Assembly: GCF_024298825.1 (NCBI RefSeq)
Contig: NZ_CP101153.1
Coordinates: forward strand, 1,488,001 to 1,552,000
Length of the DNA stretch: 64,000 bases
Origin: Haloglomus salinum
GTDB taxonomy: Archaea; Halobacteriota; Halobacteria; Halobacteriales; Haloarculaceae
Direction of reading: 5' to 3'
Shown: piece by piece, positions 11,042 to 47,713 of the stretch
Layout: every line of letters starts with the position of its first letter
Position numbering within the stretch: the first letter of the stretch is position 1
Made by a program: the position numbers and the translations under genes
The notes under the pieces: generated by a model
What the model saw: only the letters and a program-made list of their open reading frames with translations
What the model was told of the DNA's origin: nothing
The model's database searches: none

Positions 11042-11367
11042 ACGGCTACGAAGCCCTCGTGCGCTCCCGGCCGGAGAGCGGTTGCTCCGTCGGCCGGTTC
11101 CGGGGCCAGGAAGCGCGCCAGCGGCCCCCCTGTGGAGGTCGTTCGCGCCAGCGAGCGGGCCGGAACACCCCGCCGCTGGCGCGGGGAGGTGTGGGGACGC
11201 TAGCACTCCGCTGGAACCACAACGCGCGAACGCTCGATGCGACCAGCAACAGGGCGGGACTGAAAGGGGCCGCCCGCTCGACGAAGCACGCCGACGCAAG
11301 CACCGCAACGAGCGAAGCGAGTGAGGAGCGCAGCGAGGCGCGCGAGTCGAGCGGGCGGGGGCTTTCA
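11042..11367 (+). repeat. Dispersed repeat A, copy 1 (long form)
   Basis: Core 11092-11218 runs from GGCCGGTTCC to TGGAACC. It folds as outer stem GGTTCC/GGAACC and inner stem GCGCCAGCGGC/GCCGCTGGCGC, with conserved unpaired blocks CAGGAAGC on the left and GGAGGTGTGGGGAC plus TAGCACTCCGCTGG on the right. Right of the core comes GGGCGGGACTGAAAGGGGCC and the string GAGCGAAGCGAGTGAGGAGC. The same layout recurs near 47.4 kb on the other strand, and the core also near 18.7 and 43.4 kb. The inner stem differs in sequence from the other copies yet stays paired. Confidence 0.8.
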
Positions 11368-11394
11368 ACAGGAGTCGATTGTCGCTATCGTAGC

Positions 11395-17914: not shown

Positions 17915-18640
17915 GTGCGCGAACGGTACGTCTGCCTCACCTTCGACACGCTCGCGGCCCGTGTGGGGAGCACGCCCGCGGGTGCGTACGGGCCGTCCGA
18001 CGACGACTGGGCCGGAGCGCTCCGTGACGCTGTGGCCGCGAGCAGCGTCGGGCGCACCACGACCCCCGACGCGGTCCGTCCCCACCTCGACCTCCCGTGG
18101 CACCACCCCGACCGGATGCACGCCGACCGGCGCGGCGAGGACTGGTGGCGCCACCACGAGTCGGCGTTCGCCGACGCGCTCGCGGCCGTGGATGTCCCCC
18201 GCCGGCAGGCCGACGCGGTCGCACGGGGCGTCCGCGAGGCGTATCTCGACCCGACGGCGTGGGCCGCCGTCGAGGACGCGAACACGGCGCTGGACCGCCT
18301 CTCGGGCGCCGGCTGGAAGCCCGTCGTCTACCTGAACGGTCCACCGGAGGTCGAGACGTTACTCGCGACCGTCGGCCTCGACGACCGGGTGCACGAGGCG
18401 TTCACCTCGGCGCTCACGGGCTACGAACTGCCCCACGCCCGCGCCTTCGAGACCGTCGAGGACGCGCTCGGCGACTGCCGGCTCTGGTTCGCCGGCCGCG
18501 ACCCGGCCGGGGCCGCGGGGGCGCTGGACCTCGGGATTCCGGGTATCGTGGTGGCGCCCGACGCCGACGCGGCCCTACCGCCCGGCGCACGGTCGGTCGC
18601 GACGCTCGATGGAGTGGCCGACCTGCTCGACGGGAACTGA
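17915..18640 (+). CDS. HAD-superfamily-like protein with altered catalytic motifs
   Basis: 241 residues with the layout of haloacid-dehalogenase-fold proteins: first strand VCLTFDTLAARV, a helical cap (about 30-125), then GWKPVVYLNG, LTGYELPHARAFETVEDAL, CRLWFAGRDPAGAAGALDLG and IPGIVVAPDAD. The classic DxD of motif I is reduced to FDT, the Ser/Thr of motif II is Asn, the Lys of motif III is replaced in GYELPHA, and motif IV reads AGRDP. Activity as a phosphatase or dehalogenase is therefore doubtful; it may be a binding protein. GTG start. It follows the Trm-G10 gene on the same strand by 130 bases. Its stop is followed 20 bases later by dispersed repeat A. Confidence 0.7.
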   Translation: MRERYVCLTFDTLAARVGSTPAGAYGPSDDDWAGALRDAVAASSVGRTTTPDAVRPHLDLPWHHPDRMHADRRGEDWWRHHESAFADALAAVDVPRRQADAVARGVREAYLDPTAWAAVEDANTALDRLSGAGWKPVVYLNGPPEVETLLATVGLDDRVHEAFTSALTGYELPHARAFETVEDALGDCRLWFAGRDPAGAAGALDLGIPGIVVAPDADAALPPGARSVATLDGVADLLDGN

Positions 18641-18660: not shown

Positions 18661-18788
18661 GGCCGGTTCCGAGCACAGGAAGCGCGCGGGCGCGCCCCGG
18701 GTGAGCCGCCGAGCCACCGGCGAGGGGGCGAACCCTCCTGCCGCGCCCGCGGGGGGAGGTGAGGGGCCACTAGCACTCCGCTGGAACC
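18661..18788 (+). repeat. Dispersed repeat A, copy 2 (core only)
   Basis: Starts GGCCGGTTCC, ends TGGAACC, with CAGGAAGC, inner stem CGCGGGCGCG/CGCGCCCGCG and the block GGAGGTGAGGGG followed by TAGCACTCCGCTGG. It begins 21 bases after the stop of the HAD-like gene and runs in the same direction, so it would be in that gene's 3' untranslated region. The long right flank seen in copies 1 and 4 is missing. Confidence 0.8.
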
Positions 18789-43027: not shown

Positions 43028-43311
43028 TAGATAGAATCTGCCCCTGGGTGATTTATGCCGATTTCAATTTTCTTATTTAGTAAATTTGTGGGTTATATGG
43101 TATAAAATATAATTCAAGCGCCGGTGCCCTCGTGCTCTCTCACAGCCACGACGCCGACAAGAACGTCTACGAAGTCCTCGCGCTCTCGACGCGGGGGCCT
43201 CGCTGCGCTCCGGTCGCTGCGGTGCTTGCGTCGGTCGCCTTCGCCTCGCTGCGCTCGGCTCACCTTCGATTCTGCCGGGGGTCGTGTTACGAGTCGAGCG
43301 GCGCGTGCGGC
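43028..43311. other. AT-rich terminator region and repeat flank, no gene
   Basis: The first 90 bases are AT-rich (ATTTCAATTTTCTTATTTAG, GGTATAAAATATAATTC), suiting termination of the p27-like gene. From about 43140 the GC-rich flank of repeat A begins with CTACGAAGTCCTCGCGCTCT and GCTGCGGTGCTTGCGTCGG. Confidence 0.5.
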
Positions 43312-43441
43312 GGTTCCAGCGAGTCGCAGTGTCCCCTCACCTCCCCGCGCGTGCGCCGTGCGTGACTCGACACGCTCGCTCCGCTCGCGGTCTTGTCAGC
43401 GGAGGCGCCCGCGCGCTTCCTGTCGGTGGAACCGGCGGGCC
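43312..43441 (-). repeat. Dispersed repeat A, copy 3
   Basis: On the minus strand it runs from GGCCCGCCGGTTCC through CAGGAAGCGCGCGGGCGCC, a loop, GGCGCACGCGCGGGGAGGTG, AGGGGACACTGCGACTCGCTGG to GGAACC. One mismatch in the inner stem. It starts 16 bases after the hef stop and runs in the sense of hef, as copy 2 does for its gene. Confidence 0.8.
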
Positions 43442-47193: not shown

Positions 47194-47713
47194 TCGAAAG
47201 CCCCCGCTCGCTGAGGGCCCCGCGCCTCGCTGCGCTCCTCACGTCGCTCGCGTTGCTCGCTCGTTGCGGTGCTTACGTCGTCGGGGGGCCGCTCAGCGAG
47301 CGGCCCCTTTCGGTCCCGCCCTATTGCTAGTCCGGTCGAGCGGTGCGCTTGGTGGTTCCATTGGAGTGCTAGTGTCCCCACACCCCCCGCGCGGGCGCCG
47401 GGGTGGGCTCGACCCCCTCGCTCCGCTCGGGGCGTCTCGCCCGCTGAGGCGCCCGCGCGCTTCCTGGTCCCGGAACCAGCCGGCCGACCAGCAGCCACTC
47501 GGCCGGGAGCGCGTGGTGAGCAGCTCGCCTGCGAACCCGCGCGACGCGGGGAAGGGCAGGGCCACAGCGTCCGTGCCACGTTCAACGTCCCTGGCGGACT
47601 CGAAGGGCGAGCGCTCTCGGCCCGGTGAGGCGAAGTAAGCACCGCAGGCCGAACGAAGTGAGGCCGAGGAGCGCAGCGAGCCGTAACCGGTCGAGAGCGC
47701 GAGGGCTTCGTAG
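47194..47713 (-). repeat. Dispersed repeat A, copy 4 (long form)
   Basis: Core 47354-47485. On the minus strand: CCGGCTGGTTCCGGGACCAG, GAAGCGCGCGGGCGCC, loop, GGCGCCCGCGCGGGGGGTG, TGGGGACACTAGCACTCC, TGGAACC. The right flank GGGCGGGACCGAAAGGGGCC and the left flank ACGAAGCCCTCGCGCTCTCG match copy 1 in the same order. An extra segment of about 180 bases separates left flank and core here. It fills most of the gap between the zinc-finger-like gene and cofE. Confidence 0.8.

Follow-up and report, generated by a model that had tools for sequence, protein, structure and literature searches.

Archaeal repeats that encode no protein are usually regarded as inert DNA debris. Among the closest described systems is SMR-A of Haloquadratum walsbyi, a ~110-bp repeat bounded by inverted sequences, which inserts into unrelated PATE and IS605 elements; how such small repeats are mobilised was a puzzle that its authors left open (PMC3119063). 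PATEs have no inverted terminal repeats and carry near-terminal palindromes like those of IS605 elements (PMC3119063). Haloarchaea carry both PATEs and IS605-type elements in abundance (PMC3119063, PMC10544981), and PATE transcription has been mentioned (PMC10544981).

Here we analyse a hairpin repeat with four copies in a 64,000-nucleotide stretch of the Haloglomus salinum genome (the window). A search of the window against Rfam 15 gave no match at gathering scores; copy 1 with its flanks gave nothing at E ≤ 5, and eight loci of several genera gave nothing at E ≤ 0.5. These searches bear out an earlier reading of the sequence alone (the sequence-only reading), which could name no matching RNA family. 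Searches of the open literature, taken without subscription papers and supplements, turned up no description of the element.

Results

Four copies in the window

The hairpin repeat is far beyond chance, and its 3′ motif was found three times against 0.09 expected in shuffled windows. All four copies proposed by the sequence-only reading were confirmed as elements of 122–124 bp with compensatory stem changes, although the exact GGTTCC-to-GGAACC bounds are slightly shorter than those first given (Table 1). Their alignment reproduced the outer stem GGTTCC/GGAACC and the blocks CAGGAAGCGCGC and GGGGAGGTGnGGGG as previously described. The reported swap on both sides of the inner stem also held, with CGCGCCAGCGGC/GCCGCTGGCGCG in copy 1 versus CGCGGGCGC/GCGCCCGCG in copies 2 and 4; copy 3 has one mispaired position (CGGGCGCC/GGCGCACG). 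A further block said to be shared, ACTAGCACTCC, is present in copies 1, 2 and 4 with one base tolerated, but not in copy 3 (ACTGCGACTCG). When the copies were folded singly, none gained markedly over shuffles except copy 4 (z = -2.76), a weak signal that is expected at >70% G+C, so that the comparative evidence is what counts. Only copy 4 is complete; truncation has affected copies 1 and 3, and copy 2 is a bare core between a HAD-like gene (17915–18640), whose stop lies 25 bp before it, and a convergent rfc-like gene.

Table 1 Features of the four repeat copies, in window coordinates
Feature	Position	Strand	Remark
Copy 1 core: P1 GGTTCC/GGAACC, hairpin P2, GGGGAGGTGTGGGGA block	11096–11218	+	Between tatC (minus) and pheS (plus)
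Copy 1 P2 5′ strand CGCGCCAGCGGC	11114–11125	+	
Copy 1 P2 3′ strand GCCGCTGGCGCG	11172–11183	+	12 bp with 11114–11125
Copy 1 GGGGAGG	11183–11189	+	Proposed 3′ strand of the long-range helix; 5′ partner (U motif) missing, copy truncated
Copy 1 arm C: GGGCGGGACTGAAAGGGGC ... GGGGGCTTTCAAC	11252–11369	+	Long imperfect hairpin
Copy 2 core	18665–18788	+	Alone, without recognisable arms
Copy 3 core	43312–43433	-	Between convergent p27-type zinc protein and Hef-like helicase/nuclease genes
Copy 3 downstream arm B: GAATCGAAGG ... CGAGGACTTCGTA	43168–43276	-	Ends read by eye
Copy 4 core	47354–47477	-	Only complete unit in the window
Copy 4 U motif CCCTGCCCTTCCCC	47548–47561	-	Proposed 5′ partner of core GGGGAGG
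Copy 4 downstream arm C: GGGCGGGACCGAAAGGGGC ... GGGGGCTTTC	47196–47321	-	
Copy 4 upstream arm B, inverted: CCTGGCGGACTCGAAGGGCGAG ... CGAGGGCTTCGTAG	47590–47713	+	

Copy number and distribution

The window holds four of ~41 copies in the Haloglomus genome, where a 12-base pattern of the repeat occurs 39 times and a covariance model built from 11 copies gave 43 matches at E ≤ 1, of which 41 have E < 1e-4. Three Haloglomus congeners carry 46, 39 and 9 copies. Among named genomes, an exact pattern scan matched Haloglomus halophilum ZY41 and one Halobacteriales MAG. A scan of sampled haloarchaeal genomes of the order (392 genomes, 95 genera) found relatives in 14 genomes from 7 genera and nothing in most; the large scans undercount, as they scored few candidates per genome. 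A second covariance model placed relatives in families f1, f3, f4 and f17, and a third contributed a single weak match, in family f7. Full scans gave 55 copies in a genome of another genus (G277) and 19, 19 and 11 in three genomes of genus g46. With 10–55 copies in several distantly related haloarchaea and so few genomes positive, the patchy, multi-copy spread is what a mobile element would be expected to show. Plasmids, phages and viral contigs searched for the repeat yielded no convincing match.

Covariation and the core fold

With 103 copies placed on the model, 96.6% of pair cells were paired, versus 36–55% when the partner column was slid by 1–3 columns, and two-sided changes numbered 264 versus at most 69; this alignment was fitted to the model and therefore leans towards structure, and covariation is expressed here as paired cells and two-sided changes, not as R-scape significance. 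A wider alignment, in which 43 copies represent Haloglomus and five other genera, had 90.9% of cells paired versus 38–44% in the slid control, with 281 two-sided changes versus at most 61 on the same scale, spread over 32 of the 34 pairs. Because the copies are related and recombining, these counts do not represent independent events. RNAalifold, run on a MAFFT alignment of 11 copies, returned the same main stems as the model. Between genera, P1 changes from GGTTCC/GGAACC to GATCCCC/GGGGATC and GGAACCC/GGGTTCC, and the blocks GGA.GCG and GGGGAGG..GGGGA are conserved among distant relatives. Helices thus covary in the manner of a structured non-coding RNA, and the selection on structure proposed by the sequence-only reading is well supported by strong two-sided covariation in the 103 copies and again across several genera.

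The balance of G-U and A-C differs between regions of the core. In P2, G-U pairs (12) and A-C pairs (9) show no preference for RNA over single-stranded DNA, and the poorly supported P3 region has 219 G-U against 4 A-C. The short stem P3 itself (GGAGgTG/CACTCC), which came from the first RNAalifold prediction, was dropped because of its weak pairing (78–90%), few two-sided changes and conflict with the long-range helix described below. In the upper P2 hairpin (A7 columns 48–58 and 133–143), the covarying helices are often separated by GA facing GA, the arrangement of tandem sheared G-A pairs, and the loop of this hairpin differs greatly in length from copy to copy.

A proposed long-range helix

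A conserved upstream block, CCUCCCC (CCCUUCCCC in Haloglomus), is complementary to GGGGAGG of the core. RNAalifold joined the two without the pairing being imposed, in five g46 copies and again in 25 G277 copies, and the Haloglomus block CCCUUCCCC retains the complementarity with one G-U pair. Two G-rich blocks earlier called unpaired are probably the 3′ strand of this helix; the label had been given to GGAGGTGnGGGG, whose predicted partner lies upstream, beyond the coordinates considered at the time. Since the strands run in the order U block, P1 5′, GGGGAGG, P1 3′, the predicted helix would form a pseudoknot with P1, and RNA from the repeat would apparently fold into a conserved knotted shape. 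Within G277 the helix is nearly invariant, so conserved that it offers complementarity but little covariation, and covariation cannot prove it; the pseudoknot is a model of what may form in vivo.

A larger unit with hairpin arms

The hairpin is only the core of a unit flanked by long hairpin arms in opposite orientation. An upstream segment U, carrying CCCTGCCCTTCCCC or CCTCCCCAACC, is followed by the core and a downstream segment D, and D in turn by arm C (GGGACTGAAAGGGGC ... GGGGCTTTC) or arm B (GACTCGAAGGGCGAG ... GAGGGCTTCG); an inverted arm is often present upstream. By a simple pattern, the U1 motif was found in 21 of 40 copies in the Haloglomus genome, and a downstream arm C or B in 33 of 40. 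The order U, core, D, arm is conserved in several genera, and the core followed by arm C also occurs in G277 and G024, which belong to other families. Since U and D consistently flank it, independent insertion of the core was rejected for most copies. The Haloglomus unit ends in its inverted hairpin arms, and units of genus g46 have inverted terminal repeats, CGACTCCAATNNNACCGC, in pairs ~320–460 bp apart. These g46 ends number 45–68 per genome, are paired in inverted orientation and have variable outer sequence (e.g. GCTAGC or CTAGG). No longer element was obvious among the end pairs listed in g46, and no target-site duplication was seen at the unit ends that were read.

Arm C is widespread in haloarchaea and also occurs by itself, in 23 of 39 genomes and with up to 67 pattern hits, so that it leads a wider existence of its own. 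It is often found in outward-facing inverted pairs 40–50 bp apart, whose stem sequences are wholly different between genera. Beyond copies L013, L041 and L046, tandem repeats of the outer half of these arms (B and C) follow at ~60 bp spacing. In G277, copies L314, L317, L319, L322, L325 and L327 have their U hairpins separated from P1 by an A+T-rich insert, each strand of which bears TTTATA-like boxes that are possibly promoter-like.

Genomic context and copy history

All listed Haloglomus copies are intergenic or at gene edges. The four flanking gene orientations occur 14, 9, 9 and 8 times (simple home-made gene caller), and around 40 Haloglomus copies no gene family recurred within 3.5 kb, so that the repeat has no fixed gene partner and a gene-linked cis element was rejected. 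Nor was a transposase able to mobilise the repeat found. At L051, in G024, two nearby cores lie in opposite orientation beside arm C and a tnpB-like gene.

Many copies have a counterpart at the same locus in the two other species, and some are shared by all three. A few loci show much stronger conservation of the core (114/121) than of its flanks (~60%). Elsewhere the core version differs between orthologous loci, with breakpoints inside the core: L079 and L142 share one flank at 249/250 identity, and L067 and L125, at the same locus, match almost perfectly in one or both flanks. A different core beside a near-identical flank points to exchange between dispersed copies, by recombination or gene conversion, in close species.

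A close relative lacks copy 4 and has U joined straight to arm C at a GCTCGG repeat, and comparison of L089 with L241 showed a relative without the whole centre and with GGCGGG at the joint. For eight Haloglomus copies unmatched in a second genome (G002), the compared loci showed deletion or unrelated intergenic sequence; locus L084 aligned straight through in this comparison. None of the absences examined was a clean insertion or empty site with a target-site duplication. They resemble deletions or replaced intergenic DNA, and insertion is therefore not proven by them.

Discussion

On balance, with confidence somewhat above even, we regard the repeat as the core of a short, protein-less, mobile multi-copy element (~0.35–0.7 kb) carrying a conserved structured RNA. 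The sequence-only reading had posed a choice between an RNA and hairpin-ended mobile DNA; this either/or looks wrong, as a structured RNA core appears to lie inside a repeated hairpin-armed element. In the proposed layout, an inverted long hairpin arm is followed by U (one or two hairpins and CCUCCCC), core A (outer stem P1, hairpin P2 and GGGGAGGNNNGGGGA), the short linker D and a second arm; the U block would pair with GGGGAGG, extending P2 and forming a pseudoknot with P1. The element is probably mobile and would have spread, now or in the past, in many copies, presumably through mobilisation in trans, while recombination shuffled these copies further and deletion removed some. We infer transcription, transposition and a partner enzyme, and favour the idea that the RNA fold is conserved because it would help the element to propagate. 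More tentatively, and as a possibility that we hold to be well short of probable, the repeats may represent a new class of large pseudoknotted RNA on protein-less repeats of at least five haloarchaeal families, whose fold the element would need in order to spread, serving a transposition enzyme provided in trans as its substrate, guide or catalyst.

The main rival is a plain DNA foldback or MITE-like element, whose hairpins would matter only as DNA, in a cruciform or a single-stranded transposition intermediate, with no RNA function. Its stems could co-vary through quasipalindrome correction (hairpin-templated repair) and recombination between copies, and because DNA repair can produce stem matching, this explanation deserves real weight, although we think it rather unlikely. 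The multi-copy, patchy occurrence, the hairpin arms and inverted terminal repeats, the different core versions with internal breakpoints at orthologous loci and the lack of a G-U excess in P2 all agree with it. What it explains poorly is the geometry: the P1 strands are ~110 nt apart and those of the long-range helix ~150–250 nt, and their crossing would make a pseudoknot, impossible for a cruciform. Strong conservation of the blocks on the unpaired side also argues against it, as does the large G-U surplus in the P3 region, where such pairs would be stable on one strand only.

A family of host-beneficial non-coding RNA genes, regulatory or scaffold-like, kept by the cell in many copies without being mobile, is a distinctly unlikely explanation. 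Loci shared by three species and cores that outlast their flanks are what it would predict, yet most related genera are without the repeat, close species differ by the loss or truncation of copies, neither neighbour gene nor orientation is fixed, and the arms resemble terminal inverted repeats. Descent from a decayed IS200/IS605-type transposon, as an omega RNA or PATE end without tnpB, seems very improbable. Haloarchaea are rich in such elements, transcription of PATEs is possible (PMC3119063, PMC10544981), and one core pair in another genus adjoins a tnpB-like gene, but neither tnpB nor any other gene family recurs around the 40 Haloglomus copies, Rfam gave no match, and PATEs are without the terminal inverted repeats that this repeat has.

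If the folded RNA is conserved across several families, the repeat would join the few mobile elements with RNA structure in their machinery, and it allows a concrete test of the small-repeat mobilisation puzzle raised for Haloquadratum. The 40–55 diverged copies per genome are natural libraries for testing the fold. Should the element be plain DNA, it would still offer a well-documented example of how repeats that recombine with one another keep their stems co-varying. Arm C deserves its own study.

By published description, the repeat resembles SMR-A (HqIRS42/43/55) in its ~110–124 bp core, inverted ends, tens of copies per genome, absence of protein and lack of a visible target duplication. 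It differs in that the Haloglomus-type core nearly always occurs with the same U and D, as part of a larger unit common to most copies, whereas SMR-A inserts into unrelated hosts. With MITEs it shares a short, non-coding, protein-less sequence in many copies, whose make-up calls for no long open reading frame, and terminal inverted repeats, which are clear in g46; it differs in that neither a parent transposase nor a target-site duplication was found at the loci studied, and in its strong RNA-type covariation and proposed pseudoknot. PATEs, IS200/IS605 ends and omega RNAs are likewise found in haloarchaea as palindrome-rich, protein-less copies with a possible RNA product, but the repeat has inverted terminal repeats and other end sequences, and tnpB is not adjacent in the Haloglomus genome, its single occurrence as a neighbour being in another genus. 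HEARO, GOLLD and ROOL are large, structured RNAs of bacteria whose function is unclear and which are frequently associated with mobile DNA. The repeat is archaeal, has many copies per genome without protein and matches none of them in sequence or Rfam, but it resembles them in its large conserved multi-branched fold and its patchy distribution.
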